A DNA stretch of 64,000 nt from Sulfurovum lithotrophicum. GTDB lineage: Bacteria > Campylobacterota > Campylobacteria > Campylobacterales > Sulfurovaceae. The DNA lies in NCBI RefSeq assembly GCF_000987835.1, contig NZ_CP011308.1:62001-126000 (forward strand), given 5' to 3'. A model generated the notes under the pieces. The model did no database searches and was not told the DNA's origin. It saw only the letters and a list, made by a program, of their open reading frames with translations. A program made the position numbers and the translations under genes. Each line of letters starts with the position of its first letter. Positions within the stretch are counted from its first letter, which is position 1. Positions 3,769 through 59,708 of the stretch are shown piece after piece.

Positions 3769-5772
3769 ATGAAAAAAATAATACTATTACTATTGATAAT
3801 GCTTAGCGTACTATTCTCAAATACCCCTAATGCCTGTGATGTTTTGGCAGCTAATCCAAAGGATAAGTCAAATCCTACTGGTGTTATTGGTGTTAATTTT
3901 GAAAAGATTGATGTAGTTAAAGCAAGAAAAGCCTGTACTCAAGCGGTTAAAGATTTCCCTAATGAACCGAGATATAGCTATCAGTTAGGTAGAGTGTACC
4001 ATAAGATGAAAGAGTACAAAAAAGCTTTTGAATGGTACAAAAGGTCAGCTGAGCAAAATAATACTCTCTCACAGTACGAACTTATACGTATGTATCATAA
4101 GGGTGTAGGTACTAAAAAGAATCAAAAAGAATCTCTAAAATGGTTGATGGTTGCTGCCAAACAAGGTTCTTCAGTAGCCCAGGGTGCATTAGGAATGATA
4201 TATAGAGATGGCGATAAAGGACTTAAACAGGATTATAAAAAAGCAATATATTGGTATAAGAAATCAGCCGAGCAAAATGTATCTCAAGCACAAAATGATT
4301 TAGGCGAAATGTACTACTATGGAGAAGGTGTTGAAAAAGATTACAAAAAAGCATTCAAATGGTATATGAAAGCTGCAAAGCAAAATAATCCTCAAGCACA
4401 AAATGATTTAGGCGAAATGTACTACTATGGAGAAGGTGTGGAAAAAGATTACAAAAAAGCATTCAAATGGTATATGAAAGCTGCAAAGCAAGGAAATACT
4501 TATGCTCAAGCACATCTTGGAGATATGTATTATTCTGGAGAAGGTGTTGAAAAAGATTACAAAGAAGCCTTCAAGTGGTATATGAAAGCTGCAAAGCAAG
4601 GAAATGCTTATACTCAAGCACATCTTGGATATATGTACTACTATGGAGAAGGTGTTGAAAAAGATTACAAAAAAGCATTCAAATGGTATATGAAAGCTGC
4701 AAAGAAAGGAAATGCTTATGCTCAAGGTCAAGTAGGACAAATGTATATTTTTGATAAGGCAGTTAAAAAAGACGAAAAAGAAGCTTTTAAGTGGGCCATG
4801 AAAGGAGCTAAACAAGGGGATGCTGATGCTCAGTATATACTTGGGGCTATGTATATAAATGGAACAGGAACCAAAAGAAACTATAAGAAAGCCTTTCAAT
4901 GGCGTATAAAAGCAGCTAAGCAAAATTATGTTGCAGCTCAACTTTTTATTGCAATTATGTATGAACAGGGTCATGGTGTTAAAAGAAATTATATAAAGGC
5001 TTATGCTTGGTACAATATTGCTGCAACTAACAATAAAATGGGTATTGGTAAAGAATCTATGAATAAACTTGAAACAAAAATGACTCCTCAACAAATTGCC
5101 ATTGCCCAAAGCTATGATCCACTTAAAGAGGATAAAGAAATAGAAAATAAATTAGATGGGGAGAAAACGGAATCTTCACAAAGATATATAGGGACAGGTT
5201 TTTTCGTTGATAAATTTACAGTCCTAACAAATAATCATGTAGTTAAAAATTGTAAAGGTATCGAACTTATTAGAATGGGGTATAGGTCTACAGCTAAAAT
5301 AAAAGCAAAGGATTCTATCAATGACCTGGCAATACTTGAAGCAGATAAAGCAAATAGCAGTTTTCTGAATTTTAGAGCTGGCCAAGGTATTCGTATTGGT
5401 GACGATATTGTTGTGATCGGCTATCCTCTGGGATACCTTCTTGGTAGTGGGATTAAAGTAACAACAGGTAATGTGAGTGCATTGACTGGGTTAGTTAATG
5501 ATACAACTAATATGCAACTAACTGCTCCTGTGCAGCCTGGAAATAGTGGAGGAGCATTATTAGACAAAAGTGGCAATGTAGTAGGTGTTGTAGTTGCAAG
5601 ATTAAAGAGAGAACAGAATGTCAATTTGGCAATAAAATCTAATGTGGCTCAAATGTTCTTGGATATTAATAATATAAATTACGGTGTATCTATGTCCAAA
5701 GATAAAAAAGATGTAGCTGATATTGCAGATGAAGCAAAAGATGGTATTGTGAAGGTTATTTGTTATCAATAG
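3769..5772 (+). CDS. secreted Sel1-repeat protein with C-terminal trypsin-like serine protease domain
   Basis: A 667-residue protein. Residues 1-23 are a signal peptide. Residues about 65-430 form roughly ten Sel1-like repeats of 36 residues (pattern GxMYYYGEGVEKDYKKAFKW then YMKAAKQ). Four repeats between about 4310 and 4750 are almost identical in DNA, pointing to recent expansion. Residues about 470-640 are a DegP/S1C-type protease domain with an intact triad: His490 in TNNHVV, Asp519 in NDLAIL and Ser593 in PGNSGGA. There is no PDZ domain. Sel1 repeats usually bind other proteins, so a periplasmic protease with a built-in recruitment scaffold is a fair inference. Codon use is AT-rich compared with the flanks. 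Confidence 0.85.
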   Translation: MKKIILLLLIMLSVLFSNTPNACDVLAANPKDKSNPTGVIGVNFEKIDVVKARKACTQAVKDFPNEPRYSYQLGRVYHKMKEYKKAFEWYKRSAEQNNTLSQYELIRMYHKGVGTKKNQKESLKWLMVAAKQGSSVAQGALGMIYRDGDKGLKQDYKKAIYWYKKSAEQNVSQAQNDLGEMYYYGEGVEKDYKKAFKWYMKAAKQNNPQAQNDLGEMYYYGEGVEKDYKKAFKWYMKAAKQGNTYAQAHLGDMYYSGEGVEKDYKEAFKWYMKAAKQGNAYTQAHLGYMYYYGEGVEKDYKKAFKWYMKAAKKGNAYAQGQVGQMYIFDKAVKKDEKEAFKWAMKGAKQGDADAQYILGAMYINGTGTKRNYKKAFQWRIKAAKQNYVAAQLFIAIMYEQGHGVKRNYIKAYAWYNIAATNNKMGIGKESMNKLETKMTPQQIAIAQSYDPLKEDKEIENKLDGEKTESSQRYIGTGFFVDKFTVLTNNHVVKNCKGIELIRMGYRSTAKIKAKDSINDLAILEADKANSSFLNFRAGQGIRIGDDIVVIGYPLGYLLGSGIKVTTGNVSALTGLVNDTTNMQLTAPVQPGNSGGALLDKSGNVVGVVVARLKREQNVNLAIKSNVAQMFLDINNINYGVSMSKDKKDVADIADEAKDGIVKVICYQ

Positions 5773-23749: not shown

Positions 23750-24925
23750 ATGAAAAAAATTAAATTTTTTCTGATGATCGTCTTACTCATTTTTATGATT
23801 TCGGAAATAGAAGCTAAAAATTATCCCAATAATTATAAGGCAGGATACAGGCACGGCTGTCTAACAGCTCAGGGAACTATTAGAAAAGATAAACAAGCAT
23901 ATAATAATCACATACAATACCGGAAGGGATGGAATACTGGATTCAAAAAATGCAAAAAACCTATTCCCAATGTTTGGAATTCCTATAATAAAGGGTATAA
24001 AGACGGATGCAGTTCGGCACGCGGAAGGTGGGTGAAAAATGTCAAGGCCTATAACCGTTTCACCAATTACCGCAGAGGCTGGAATGCCGGATTCAAAAAA
24101 TGTAAAAAACCTATTCCCAATGTTTGGAATTCCTATAATAAAGGGTATAAAGACGGATGCAGTTCGGCACGCGGAAGGTGGGTGAAAAATGTCAAGGCCT
24201 ATAACCGTTTCACCAATTACCGCAGAGGCTGGAATGCCGGATTCAAAAAATGTAAAAAACCTATTCCCAATGTTTGGAATTCCTATAATAAAGGCTATAA
24301 AGACGGATGCAGTTCGGCACGTGGAAGGTGGGTGAAAAATGTCAAGGCCTATAACCGTTTCACCAATTACCGCAGAGGCTGGAATGCAGGGAAAAGAGAT
24401 TGTAGAATAGGCATCAGGCCGATAGTTATACCTCCTGTTCCGGTTGCGCCTGCTCCAGTCATTAATATTCCTCATCCTGAACCTGTGGTTATAGAAAAAG
24501 TACAAATAGCAGAAAATCCAATGATTCGTGCAGCTAAAGATTTTATTTTGGCTAAATATATCCATGAATCACCGGTAAGACCTATAGGATTTAGTATAAG
24601 GATGAATAAATCAAATATGAAATACGGTGCATTGGAATTCACTATTTTCCACAAGGATGATACACATTTTGTGGAAGAAAATTTAACCAATACTGTATTT
24701 TTGCTGTGTTTTGAAAAAACGCAGGATGGATGGGAAGTCATTAATGACCTGACAGGAGCAGACACTTTGGATAAGCAGAAATTACTCATTATTAAGAATT
24801 CTCTTCCTGAGGATTTTCCGCTTGATCTGCTTCCCACAGCATGGATAGATCTTTTTGATACACTTGATCAGAGCATTACCGGTAATCCTGGGGATCAACT
24901 TATCCCAGGTTCAGGGTCTGTATAG
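23750..24925 (+). CDS. exported protein with four 50-residue Cys/aromatic repeats
   Basis: A 391-residue protein with a signal peptide (about 1-22). Residues about 23-215 contain four units of the pattern YxxGYxxGCxxAxGxxxK, then AYxxxxxYxxGWxxGxxxC; the first is divergent and the next three are nearly identical. A proline-rich linker (about 225-250) leads to a 130-residue C-terminal domain I cannot assign. Two Cys per unit suggest disulfides in the periplasm or at the surface. TATACT at 23709-23714 is a possible -10. Function unknown. Confidence 0.75.
   Translation: MKKIKFFLMIVLLIFMISEIEAKNYPNNYKAGYRHGCLTAQGTIRKDKQAYNNHIQYRKGWNTGFKKCKKPIPNVWNSYNKGYKDGCSSARGRWVKNVKAYNRFTNYRRGWNAGFKKCKKPIPNVWNSYNKGYKDGCSSARGRWVKNVKAYNRFTNYRRGWNAGFKKCKKPIPNVWNSYNKGYKDGCSSARGRWVKNVKAYNRFTNYRRGWNAGKRDCRIGIRPIVIPPVPVAPAPVINIPHPEPVVIEKVQIAENPMIRAAKDFILAKYIHESPVRPIGFSIRMNKSNMKYGALEFTIFHKDDTHFVEENLTNTVFLLCFEKTQDGWEVINDLTGADTLDKQKLLIIKNSLPEDFPLDLLPTAWIDLFDTLDQSITGNPGDQLIPGSGSV
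23941..24390 (+). repeat. three tandem 150-bp coding repeats
   Basis: Units 23941-24090, 24091-24240 and 24241-24390 differ at only a few positions (for example TGC/TGT near the start, GGG/GGC and CGC/CGT). The unit is a multiple of three, so gain or loss of a unit keeps the reading frame of the host gene. Confidence 0.95.
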
Positions 24926-44353: not shown

Positions 44354-44911
44354 ATGGATCTGTTCGATAAGCATAATCGTTTTAATATCGCCAATATAGT
44401 GACTTATTTGAATGTTTCACTGGGCGTTATTGCCATTTATTTCATTGTCAAGGAAGATTTTTTCACAGCGATCATCCTGGCATGGATCGCAGGGGCCTGC
44501 GATATCATCGATGGTAAGCTGGCGCGCAAATATGAGCTCTCGACCGAATTCGGAATACAATTGGACAGCTTTGCCGATTTTATCTCTTTTGTCGTCATGC
44601 CGCCGTTCCTGCTGTTCTATTCATTGAAGGGCAGTTTTACGAGCGGATGGGAAGAACTGATCGTTGGGCTGGTTTTCATTGCCTATATTATTCTGGGGCT
44701 GCGCAGACTGGTAGAATTCAACCTGAAAGTGGATGCAGGTGAAGTAGCAAAGTATTTTGAAGGTGTGCCGACACCGCTTGGTGCCATACTGCTCTGGGTA
44801 CTCTATCTGCTATTCAGTTACCATATCGTACCCAGTGTTTTCATAATTACCCTGCTGGTCGTGGGGATCGCCTGGTCACTGAACAGCCAGTTGAAAATAC
44901 CACACCCATGA
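44354..44911 (+). CDS. pssA: CDP-diacylglycerol-serine O-phosphatidyltransferase-like
   Basis: A 185-residue CDP-alcohol phosphatidyltransferase with about six membrane spans. The motif Asp50-xx-Asp53-Gly-xx-Ala-Arg58 ... Gly67-xxx-Asp71-xxx-Asp75 is complete (CDIIDGKLARKY, FGIQLDSFADF). The PssA assignment rests on general resemblance and short length; another CDP-alcohol transferase such as PgsA is possible. It would make a phospholipid head group in the inner membrane. A TAAAAT upstream may be its -10. Confidence 0.8.
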   Translation: MDLFDKHNRFNIANIVTYLNVSLGVIAIYFIVKEDFFTAIILAWIAGACDIIDGKLARKYELSTEFGIQLDSFADFISFVVMPPFLLFYSLKGSFTSGWEELIVGLVFIAYIILGLRRLVEFNLKVDAGEVAKYFEGVPTPLGAILLWVLYLLFSYHIVPSVFIITLLVVGIAWSLNSQLKIPHP

Positions 44912-44913
44912 AA

Positions 44914-44941
44914 GTGAAGAGTGAAGAATGAAGAGTGAAGA
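44914..44941 (+). repeat. heptamer tandem repeat (GTGAAGA) holding the prenyltransferase start
   Basis: Four tandem 7-base units, GTGAAGA-GTGAAGA-ATGAAGA-GTGAAGA, followed by a degenerate GTTGAAA. The third unit has G changed to A, which creates the ATG start of the next gene. The second unit contributes an in-frame TGA two codons upstream of that ATG. Confidence 0.9.
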
Positions 44942-45818
44942 GTTGAAAAGAAATGTTTTTTTTGAAAAACTGAATGATTTTTCCGAACTGGTGATGCTCA
45001 AGCACTCCGTGTTCTCACTACCGTTCATCTTTATTGCCATGCTGGTCGCCTCCTATCTGGACAGCGGGTCGGGATGGTTCGGCTGGAAACTGTTGTTTCT
45101 CGGAACAGTGGCAGCGGTGAGTGCCCGTAACTTTGCTATGGGTGTCAACCGCTATCTTGACAGAGATATTGACATACTCAATCCAAGGACAAAGAACAGA
45201 CCTTCGGTTGACGGCCGGGTTTCCACCGGGCAGATGCTGCTTTTCATTGTTATCAATGCCTTGATTTTTATCGGCGTTGCCTATCTCATCAATGCACTTG
45301 CTTTCGAACTCTCTGTACCGATTCTGATGGTACTGGGAGCCTATACCGTCTTTAAACGTTTCTCTGCACTGGCACATCTCATACTCGGTGTGAGCCTCGG
45401 CCTGGCACCCATCGCAGGTGTGGTGGCCGTCTCCGGGGAGATCACGCTTTGGTCGGTCTATCTCGCGGTTGGTGTGATGTTCTGGGTAGCAGGTTTCGAT
45501 CTGCTCTATTCTCTGCAGGATATGGCATTCGACAAAGCCAACGATCTGCACTCTATTCCTTCAAAGTTGGGGGCAGAGAAAACAATGCTGATCGCCAGAG
45601 TATTTCATATACTGGCCGTCTTTTTCTGGGCTCTGTTCATCGTGAATGCGAATCTGGGTATCTGGGCAGGGACAGCGGTACTGTTCGCTGCGGTCATGTT
45701 GACATATGAGCACTATCTTGTCAACAAAGACTTTACAAAGATCGACAGGGCTTTTTTTACCGTGAACGGGTATCTGGGGTTTGTCTTTCTGTTTTTTATC
45801 ATCCTGGAGGTAATATAA
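44928..45818 (+). CDS. mqnP: UbiA-family polyprenyltransferase, probably MqnP
   Basis: A 296-residue membrane prenyltransferase with about eight spans. The first Asp-rich motif is Asn74-xxx-Asp78-xxx-Asp82 (NRYLDRDID), and the second is around DLLYSLQDMAFDKANDL. Campylobacterota make menaquinone by the futalosine route, where MqnP prenylates the ring, so MqnP is more likely than UbiA. That choice is inferred from phylum, not from sequence alone. The start codon lies inside a heptamer repeat and no ordinary Shine-Dalgarno is seen. Confidence 0.82.
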   Translation: MKSEELKRNVFFEKLNDFSELVMLKHSVFSLPFIFIAMLVASYLDSGSGWFGWKLLFLGTVAAVSARNFAMGVNRYLDRDIDILNPRTKNRPSVDGRVSTGQMLLFIVINALIFIGVAYLINALAFELSVPILMVLGAYTVFKRFSALAHLILGVSLGLAPIAGVVAVSGEITLWSVYLAVGVMFWVAGFDLLYSLQDMAFDKANDLHSIPSKLGAEKTMLIARVFHILAVFFWALFIVNANLGIWAGTAVLFAAVMLTYEHYLVNKDFTKIDRAFFTVNGYLGFVFLFFIILEVI

Positions 45819-56935: not shown

Positions 56936-58231
56936 ATGAAAAAATTATTCATAGAAACACTCGGATGTGCGATGAATGTCCGTGACAGCGAACATATGAT
57001 CGCGGAGCTGAACAGAAAAGAGCCTTACGAGCTTACCCAGAATCTCAATGAGGCAGACCTGATCATCATCAACACCTGTTCGGTCAGGGAAAAGCCTGTT
57101 GCCAAGCTCTTCTCAGAGATCGGTGTTTTCAACAAACATAAAAAACCAGGAGCCAAAATAGGGGTTGCCGGATGTACGGCAAGCCATTTGGGAAAAGATA
57201 TCATCAAAAGAGCACCGTCGGTAGATTTTGTCATCGGTGCGAGGAATGTCTCCAAGATCACACAGGTGGTCAATACGAAACATGCCGTTGAGATCGATAC
57301 GGATTATGATGAAAGTACCTATGCATTCGGTGAATACCGAACCAATCCTTTCAAAGCGATGGTCAATATCTCTATCGGGTGTGACAAGTCCTGTACTTTC
57401 TGTATCGTTCCGGCAACCAGGGGCGATGAGATCTCCATCCCCAGTGACCTGCTGGTACAGGAGATCACAAAAGCTGTATCGAGTGGGGCCAAAGAAGTGA
57501 TGCTTCTTGGGCAAAACGTCAACAATTACGGCAGACGTTTCGGTGCGGTTGAGGAGAAGATAGATTTTACCGGACTGCTTCAAAAAATATCTAAGATCGA
57601 AGGTTTGGAGCGCATTCGCTTCACCTCTCCCCATCCTCTGCATATGGATGACGCATTCCTTGAAGAGTTCGCTTCCAACCCGAAGTTATGCAAGCAGATA
57701 CATGTACCGCTTCAGAGTGGCTCGACTTCTCTTCTCAAGGCGATGAAACGTGGCTATACGAAAGAGAATTTTCTGGGCCGCTGTGAAAAGATTCGTACGC
57801 TTTGCCCCGAAGCGACCATCTCGACAGATATCATTGTCGGTTTCCCTGGCGAGACCGAGGCGGATTTTGAAGATACAATGGATGTGTTGGAAAAAGTACG
57901 TTTTGAGCAGCTTTTTTCCTTCAAGTACTCTCCACGGCCCCATACAGAAGCGGCAGAATTTGAAGAGCAGATCGATAACAGGATCGCAGGCGAACGGTTG
58001 ACACGGCTGCAGGCAAGACATACAGAAATACTCGATGAGATCATGGATGCACAGCTTGGAAAAGTGCATGAAGTCTATTTTGACGAACTCAAATCCAACG
58101 GCAGGGTCTCCGGACGCAGTGATGACGGGAAGCTTGTTTTTGTAGAGGGCAGCGAAGAGCTTCTCGGGAAGATCGCAGATGTCAAGATTACCAAAACATC
58201 ACGTGGTGCGCTCGACGGTGTATTGGTATAG
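56936..58231 (+). CDS. miaB: tRNA-2-methylthio-N6-dimethylallyladenosine synthase
   Basis: MiaB adds a methylthio group to the isopentenylated A37 made by MiaA. Length 431 is typical. The N-terminal cluster Cys residues start with [12 protein letters not shown] (Cys11); the radical SAM motif is [15 protein letters not shown]; a TRAM domain forms the end. It differs from RimO in the PATRG sequence after the CxxxCxxC. No clear Shine-Dalgarno precedes the ATG. Confidence 0.96.
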
Positions 58232-58237
58232 AATATA

Positions 58238-58861
58238 ATGAAACATTTCTTCAGAACTGTGGCGAAGGTCACTGTTCCTCCTCTTCTTTATGTATTGATG
58301 CGGATCATCTGGTTCAGCACCTCTAAAAAATTCCACTTCATCTCTCCAGTCGGTGAAGAACAGCATGTCTGTGTCTGCTGGCACGGAGAACTTTTTATGA
58401 GTCCACAGGCTTATAGAGAGATCCATAAAAAGCAGCTGGCCTCTGCCATTATCTCCTCCCATTTTGACGGCTCACTGATCGCAGGGACCCTGAAATACCT
58501 CCATATAAGACCTCTGAGAGGCTCTACAAAAAGAGGTGCAAGACAGGTACTTTTACAGGCGTTTAAAAGTATCAAGGCAGGCGAAGAGGTGCTAATAACC
58601 CCTGACGGCCCACGAGGTCCAAGACACTCCATGAGTGACGGTGCTGTGGGCATTGCACTGAAAAGCGGATTACCGATCTTTATTATGAATTTCATGGCAG
58701 AGAATTACTGGCAGCTGAAAAGTTGGGACAGATTTGTGATCCCAAAACCTTTTAGCAAAGTTGATTTCTATCTTCAAAGTATCAGTCTGGAAGGTATGGA
58801 CTTTGAAGAGGCAAAAGCATTTCTGTCTGAACGGATGCTGGAACACACAATATTGCAGTGA
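58238..58861 (+). CDS. DUF374 / lysophospholipid-acyltransferase-family protein
   Basis: A 207-residue membrane-associated protein. The motifs CWHGELF, SSHFDGSLIA, RGSTKRGARQVL and TPDGPRGPRH are those of the DUF374 family, which is related to LpxL-type acyltransferases of lipid A. An acyl-transfer role in envelope lipids is therefore likely but not proven. It lies six bases after miaB, and its stop codon falls in the heptamer repeat. Confidence 0.88.
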   Translation: MKHFFRTVAKVTVPPLLYVLMRIIWFSTSKKFHFISPVGEEQHVCVCWHGELFMSPQAYREIHKKQLASAIISSHFDGSLIAGTLKYLHIRPLRGSTKRGARQVLLQAFKSIKAGEEVLITPDGPRGPRHSMSDGAVGIALKSGLPIFIMNFMAENYWQLKSWDRFVIPKPFSKVDFYLQSISLEGMDFEEAKAFLSERMLEHTILQ

Positions 58862-58887
58862 GCAGTGAGCAGTGAGCAGTGAGCAGT
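58856..58887 (+). repeat. heptamer tandem repeat (CAGTGAG) holding the Xer start
   Basis: Four full copies of CAGTGAG plus CAGT, 32 bases. It contains the stop codon of the acyltransferase gene (58859-58861), an in-frame TGA for the next frame (58866-58868) and the likely GTG start of the recombinase gene (58872). Confidence 0.95.
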
Positions 58888-59708
58888 TAAAAGGATTTAT
58901 TGAGGATTTCCTTGAGTACCTGTTAGATGTCCGTGGCTATTCTGAAACCACTGTTACTACGTATGAGATCGCTTTGCGTCAGATGAGTGAAGTGAGCCAC
59001 TTTTATGAAGAGGACGGTATCAGAGTTCTTGATATCACCCCTTTTCGCTTTAACATTGTTAAAAACAGTAAAAAGACCATCGTCAAAAAACTTTCAGCTG
59101 TGCGCTCCTTTGTCAAATATCTCGAAGATCAATGTAATGTTTCGGTGAAACTCATAGCTGATGAGTCCATTAAGGTACCCCAGAGTCTCCCCAAGCCCAT
59201 TGAAGAGCAGTATATAGAAGAAGTATTGTCTAAGGCAAATATGGAAGAAAAACTGCTTATAAGCATGCTTTACGGTCTTGGCTTGAGGATCTCCGAGCTG
59301 AGCGGGTTGAAACTTGAAGATATCAAAAGTGGATGGATACAAATACACGGGAAGGGCAGCAAAGTAAGAGAGCTGCCTATGATGGCATCTTTGCAAAGAC
59401 TAATCATCGAGTATGTGGAGCAGAATGGACCCAAAAAATATCTTTTTGAAAAAGGGAATGCTCCTCTGAACAGTGCACAGCTTCGTTACAAGCTGACAAA
59501 GCTCTTTAAAAAAGAGGGTTTGAAGGTCACGCCCCACCAGCTGCGCCACTCTTTTGCAACACACCTGCTGAACCATGGTGCCCGTATTGCCGATGTGAGT
59601 GAACTTCTGGGGCATGAGACCATGGCAACCACGCAGATCTATACAAAACTTGGTTCTGTCAGGAAGATGGAGGAGTATATGAAGGCGCATCCTCTTGCTG
59701 ATAAATAA
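58872..59708 (+). CDS. Xer-type tyrosine recombinase
   Basis: A 278-residue site-specific recombinase. The N-terminal SAM-like DNA-binding domain (about 5-85) is followed by the catalytic domain with Arg in [11 protein letters not shown], Lys in [26 protein letters not shown] and the Tyr nucleophile in QIYTKL. Campylobacterota usually use a single XerH of about 350 residues for dimer resolution; this one is of XerC/XerD length, so which site it serves is open. The GTG start is inside the heptamer repeat, with an in-frame stop two codons upstream. Confidence 0.88.

Follow-up and report, generated by a model that had tools for sequence, protein, structure and literature searches.

The anatomy of the junction, the logic of its reading frames, its recurrence in relatives and the homogeneity of its units indicate that the heptamer array at the start of a XerC-type recombinase gene of Sulfurovum lithotrophicum is probably a tolerated, self-homogenising copy of an intergenic (RTGANNN)n repeat class of the Sulfurovum family, and not a switch that tunes the recombinase. 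The window, which is the whole 64-kb stretch of DNA that was analysed, belongs to a single-contig genome of 2.22 Mb, and the relatives used for comparison are Sulfurovum. On its forward strand, miaB (56936..58231) heads a run in which a DUF374 acyltransferase-type gene (PF04028; 58238..58861, 207 aa) is followed by a gene for a XerC-type tyrosine recombinase (58872..59708). The array, identified with TRF as 4.7 copies of GCAGTGA with a period of 7 and a match of 100% (58855..58887, forward strand), is the sole exact period-7 run of such length within the window. The long tandem repeats of 108 and 150 bp at 4231-4923 and 23930-24387 are probably located within coding sequence.

Read in the RTGANNN register, the array consists of four GTGAGCA units (58858-58864, 58865-58871, 58872-58878 and 58879-58885, forward strand), and directly after unit 4 a broken unit carries GTTA in place of GTGA (58886..58889). 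The TGA stop of the acyltransferase-type gene (58859..58861) lies within unit 1, a TGA that shuts the Xer frame upstream (58866..58868) lies within unit 2, and the GTG start of the recombinase gene lies in unit 3. The claim of an earlier note that the heptamers hold these three signals is thus borne out by TRF and by the unit coordinates. The GTG codons of units 1, 2 and 4 open frames of just 5, 5 and 3 codons, respectively. The gap between the acyltransferase stop and the Xer GTG at 58872 is 10 nt on the same strand, a proximity of stop and start that characterizes translationally coupled gene pairs.

In an alignment, array-less orthologues are predicted to begin at the codon that corresponds to GTG 58872 or at the one after it, which supports the use of this start. 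Residues 1-6 of the recombinase are encoded by the array and lie outside the Pfam N-terminal SAM-like domain because this domain begins at residue 10. The 20 nt upstream of the GTG, when paired with the 16S rRNA tail of the source genome (GGATCACCTCCTTTCA), yielded a value of -6.3; the median for the genes of the window is -5.95, and random 20-mers average -4.0. Judged by this pairing energy, which is near that of random 20-mers, the array can act as an ordinary, not strong, ribosome-binding region. The protein matches Pfam Phage_integrase and the SAM-like N-domain, and its best family is XerC (TIGR02224); the gene is called XerC-type, and not XerC, because its score of 195.9 bits falls below the curated cut-off of 335. 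Sulfurovum NBC37-1 possesses a classical dif site with both XerC and XerD, and the distances given in that study agree to a few kilobases with the identification of the window gene as XerC (PMC2731167). The window recombinase thus appears to be a housekeeping XerC that serves the dif system, and repeat-number switching of such a housekeeping gene is not expected.

The behaviour of the array can be derived from the length of its unit. In each RTGANNN unit, a start codon (RTG) overlaps a stop codon (TGA), and because 7 equals 1 modulo 3, three units supply a stop in all frames. Any RTG is followed 15 nt downstream by an in-frame TGA in the second next unit, and the Xer frame itself would encounter TGA at start+15 if GTTA were an intact GTGA. 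A long frame can thus be opened only if the second next unit is broken, and the usable start therefore lies two units before the break. With the start fixed two units before the first broken unit, a peptide of the form M-x-x-E-x-L is forced. In silico rebuilding of the junction with n = 2 to 8 units altered the length of neither the acyltransferase (207 aa) nor Xer (278 aa), and only the stop-start gap changed, in 7-nt steps (-4, 3, 10, 17 ... 38 nt), with n = 2 giving an exact 4-nt stop-start overlap. The Xer start was altered only at n = 1, and in these rebuilt junctions no reading-frame switch by copy number occurred for n >= 2.

A second heptamer array with the same layout, TGAAGAG in 5.1 copies with a TRF match of 89%, was found at 44909..44943 on the forward strand. 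A CDP-alcohol phosphatidyltransferase gene (PF01066; 44354..44911, forward strand) ends at its left edge, and the ATG of a UbiA-family prenyltransferase gene (PF01040; 44928..45818, forward strand), for which the label mqnP comes from context only, is situated within it. The recombinase begins with MSSEQLK and the UbiA-family protein with MKSEELK. The sequences are those on which the earlier note had remarked as alike in unrelated proteins, and the likeness of MSSEQL and MKSEEL follows from the unit arithmetic without any protein relationship. Clear period-7 arrays occupy the same place at the UbiA-family junction in 20 of 65 species, with a mean self-match of 0.50 at period 7 versus 0.29-0.33 at other periods; unit types differ by species, and most of the arrays extend 16-17 nt before the start.

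At the acyltransferase-xer junction, RTGANNN-type arrays were detected in 12 of 70 species, with GTGAGCA, GTGAGGA, GTGAAGA or ATGAGAA as the unit. The RTGA units number four in ten of these arrays and six in another, and the twelfth array is degenerate; these counts may be collapsed or wrong in part since most relatives are metagenome assemblies. Across the 70 species most orthologues have no array at this junction, and the same holds for the closest relative, G003 (88%). A gene tree built by a quick method, with many open branches, required 8 state changes for the array, at least 4 of which are forced by well supported branches. At the same spot, L104 (G004) and L244 (G042) carry heptamers free of start codons (AAGTAGY including AAGTAGC; AGGTAGG), which means that residence of an array at the xer junction needs no start codons. 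The xer junctions of the remaining species contain hairpin repeats or are simple, such as TAATG. Small hairpin repeats (GGTCGGTAAACCGACC; GTAGGGTGGGCTTCAGCCCACC) were also observed at the same kind of junctions elsewhere (L100, L102, L105 and L124 at xer; L171 and L180).

Units on the two sides of the start codon resemble each other within a species. At xer, noncoding and coding units agreed at 12.58 of 14 positions within species and at 10.04 between species (P = 5e-5), and the corresponding values at the UbiA-family gene were 11.00 and 9.23 of 14 (P = 5e-5); orthologous coding units at xer agreed at just 10.38 of 14. This within-species match of coding and noncoding units indicates that the units evolve in concert across the start codon, and the simplest and most likely account of the homogenising process is replication slippage. 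Homogenisation is local because two junctions of one genome can differ in their units, as in G045, which has GTGAGGA at xer but GTGAGCA at the UbiA-family gene. That the same kind of repeat seeded both start regions, as had been suggested from the sequence alone, agrees with the finding that the array-coded residues of orthologues change along with the repeat unit.

The two arrays belong to a class that is spread over the genus and located at gene borders. Of 78 Sulfurovum genomes, 44 contain exact matches to RTGARSA-RTGARSA-RTGA. The counts range from 0 to 138 per genome and for the most part greatly exceed those of a reversed-pattern control, which came close in G055; within the family, 7 of 11 genera have longer heptamer arrays. 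Presence is patchy among close relatives. An unbiased sample of 400 kb from G001 contained more arrays of period 7 than of any other tandem period, with 10 exact arrays at period 7 and 0 at periods 4 and 8-11. Through pattern searches, stretches around the matches and the evenly spaced 400 kb of this one relative, 74 arrays from G000, G001, G002, G003, G006 and G011 were collected. Only 9 of the 74 lie inside genes, where 61 were expected; between co-oriented genes 24 are forward and 20 reversed, besides 10 over starts, whereas 8 lie between divergent and 2 between convergent genes, and some sit at gene stops. Arrays within genes on the opposite strand, some with a hairpin core, are translated as inserts (L009 and L203 at an orthologous site, L167 and L189, L168 and L190, L170, L182), and some in-gene sites are common to two species. 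The excess at gene starts that the earlier note had proposed to look for was evident against uniform placement, since 10 of 74 arrays overlap a co-oriented start versus 1.1% expected (P about 1e-8), but was only modest against an intergenic null of 6.5% (10 of 65, P = 0.009). Starts in the relatives were set by a simple hexamer model, 3 of the 10 start-overlapping arrays represent one junction in three species, and these border statistics, as well as the hairpin statistics given below, count orthologous sites as independent. The arrays are a border feature and not specifically a start feature.

Stop-start overlaps of the ATGA or GTGA kind are typical of translationally coupled genes. Every Sulfurovum unit is such an RTGA overlap; unlike in coupled genes, however, the overlap is tandemly repeated, and the actual stop and start reside in different units, 10 nt apart. 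Among known heptamer repeats, the TAACTGA direct repeats of marine Beggiatoaceae, cyanobacteria and Bacteroidetes (MacGregor 2015, PMC4679880) are likewise seven-base, intergenic and often in contact with start codons; they are also patchy between relatives, differ by 7-nt indels between strains, and spread by a mechanism that is not known. The Sulfurovum arrays share with this class the presence of at least two direct seven-base copies in mostly intergenic positions. Their units (GTGAGCA, GTGAAGA, GTGAGGA, ATGAGAA and others), however, differ from TAACTGA and its reverse complement TCAGTTA, which only the array end GCAGTTA resembles, and it is the RTGANNN unit itself that carries a start overlapping a stop. 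In addition, the BOGUAY TAACTGA repeats are mostly in one orientation just upstream of starts, in contrast to the 24 forward, 20 reversed and 10 start-overlapping Sulfurovum arrays. Sulfurovum goes unmentioned in that study (PMC4679880), and no account of heptamer repeats in Sulfurovum was found in the literature searched. Heptameric G-rich repeats were reported for Xanthomonas and Nostoc in a study that also cites a general excess of heptamer simple sequence repeats (PMC4692102); they resemble the Sulfurovum arrays in the over-representation of period 7, in their intergenic location near or overlapping stops and in a length that varies between relatives. Their units are quadruplex-capable G-runs, whereas Sulfurovum units contain stop and start codons and no G-run. 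Heptanucleotide phase-variation loci, such as HMW1A (PMC8262952) and neuO (PMC13001214), also have a seven-base tandem repeat at or near a gene start, but those arrays vary in number and alter expression, whereas at Sulfurovum xer the number of four units hardly changes from one species to the next and the frame is unshiftable.

From these data, a probable course of events at the xer junction may be proposed for a tolerated insertion. The (RTGANNN)n class lodges at gene borders, and the unit arithmetic would explain why so tight a junction as that between the acyltransferase gene and xer tolerates it. Unit 1 terminates the acyltransferase gene, xer is opened by the start that lies two units ahead of GTTA, with some anti-Shine-Dalgarno pairing from the units that precede it, and translation could re-initiate at GTG 58872. 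Copies could then be gained or lost without altering either protein, with the stop-start gap alone shifting in 7-nt steps, and copy number would be nearly neutral. Slippage may homogenise the units, and the first residues of Xer would follow the repeat. The near-constancy of copy number (10 of 12 arrays at xer; 16-17 nt before the start at the UbiA-family gene) exceeds the expectation for neutral slippage and hints at a constraint on spacing.

As to how such arrays arise, a fold-back origin, in which a DNA end folds onto itself, duplicates 7-15 nt at its edge and is then extended with heptamers through repetitive synthesis, is a tentative explanation that is somewhat more likely wrong than right. 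A locus-specific hairpin (stem score >= 7) directly precedes 28 of 65 intergenic arrays; the control frequencies were 2.3% close to gene ends and 0.7% at random positions. In 16 of the 28 its left arm overlaps the gene edge by at least 3 nt. Comparison with orthologues showed that one hairpin arm is the gene edge and the other a new inverted copy. At L408 of G002, a gene of 79 aa has its last 15 nt, stop included, repeated as an inverted copy before the array, and G041, the closest relative of G002, has neither the inverted copy nor the array. Upstream elements at queE starts in about nine species contain stems of the type AAAACAAAAGG(nnn)CCTTTTGTTTT that duplicate the opening codons; most species lacking the array instead show a direct overlap between the stop of moaA and the ATG of queE. 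Inverted copies of 10-15 nt of gene ends or starts were noted beside arrays at L408 (G002), L171 and, for queE, L378, L379, L386, L389, L390, L396 and L399. Among the loci compared, such as L408 and queE, these copies were not seen in array-less orthologues, and a hairpin CATATAGGC(TCT)GCCTATATG stands ahead of the xer array of G036 (L112). On the other hand, the two arrays of the window lack such a hairpin, a weak stem at hemC in G000 without an array suggests that some hairpins may predate arrays, and hairpins may be kept by selection as terminators or as structures of the ribosome-binding site.

A hairpin core with a conserved foot, TTGGTATGC-stem-GCTTTTAT or similar, follows 24 of the 74 arrays and is absent at both arrays of the window; in these 24 larger inserts, the array is followed by TGTTGGTATGC or a similar sequence, a short hairpin and GCTTTTAT. 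The order of host edge, loop, inverted copy, RTGANNN array and core hairpin is found at both ends of the larger inserts, which suggests extension of folded-back 3' ends. In its specific form, in which a 3' end folds back, copies a gene edge of 7-15 nt (a stop, or a ribosome-binding site with the first codons) and then receives heptamers, the scheme is slightly less probable than the fold-back origin as a whole. A fold-back origin is compatible with tolerated insertion, and junction arrays such as that at xer could, with the same reservation as for the origin as a whole, be its simplest products. The arrangement of a fixed-register array, TGTTGGTATGC, a hairpin and GCTTTTAT was observed at L150, L157, L174, L175, L182, L183, L198 and others, and some array-hairpin inserts are mirrored, resulting in a BIME-like insert of about 100-150 bp. 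Mobilization by a Y1 (RAYT) transposase in the manner of REP/BIME elements was rejected because the numbers of arrays and of Y1_Tnp were uncorrelated (rho 0.16, P 0.32), and G011 and G036 possess many arrays and no Y1_Tnp.

It is unlikely that the repeat RNA is read by one sequence-specific RNA-binding protein. The unit is as long as that of the repeats described by MacGregor 2015 (PMC4679880), starts are a frequent position, and copy number is conserved at the xer and UbiA-family junctions. However, the unit sequence varies from species to species and, within a genome, from locus to locus, the arrays are patchy among close relatives, and their occurrence in both orientations, at stops and inside genes is contrary to what one sequence-specific binder predicts.

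Slightly less probable again is a contingency locus, in which slippage alters the copy number and thereby tunes Xer translation through spacing and decoy starts, as the earlier note had envisaged. Copy changes would indeed shift the stop-start gap by 7 nt and change the number of decoy frames of 3 to 5 codons, and heptanucleotide repeats tune other genes, such as HMW1A in Haemophilus (PMC8262952). Against tuning stand the nearly constant copy number between species (typically four units at xer, in 10 of 12 species), a frame that is fixed and proteins that are unchanged at n >= 2, the lack of an array in most orthologues including the closest (G003), and the apparent identity of the gene as the housekeeping XerC of the dif system (PMC2731167). 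Chance low-complexity sequence, for which the short array length and nothing else speaks, has a negligible probability and is ruled out as the origin, since 0 of 50 order-2 Markov shuffles of the window yielded a comparable period-7 run and orthologous junctions carry arrays genus-wide.

Tolerated insertion of the repeat class means that, with a 7-base unit (1 modulo 3) containing an RTGA overlap, a tandem repeat can span a stop-start junction and cost the cell next to nothing: changes in copy number affect neither protein, and the opening residues of the downstream one are dictated by the repeat. With one junction available in 60-70 species, the concerted replacement of repeat units can be watched across a coding boundary. 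Should the fold-back origin prove right, it would offer a concrete, testable source for the heptamer repeats that have long been described in bacteria with no mechanism to account for them, and a DNA-end process would repeatedly write new stops, ribosome-binding sites, start regions, N-termini and C-termini into the genes of these bacteria.
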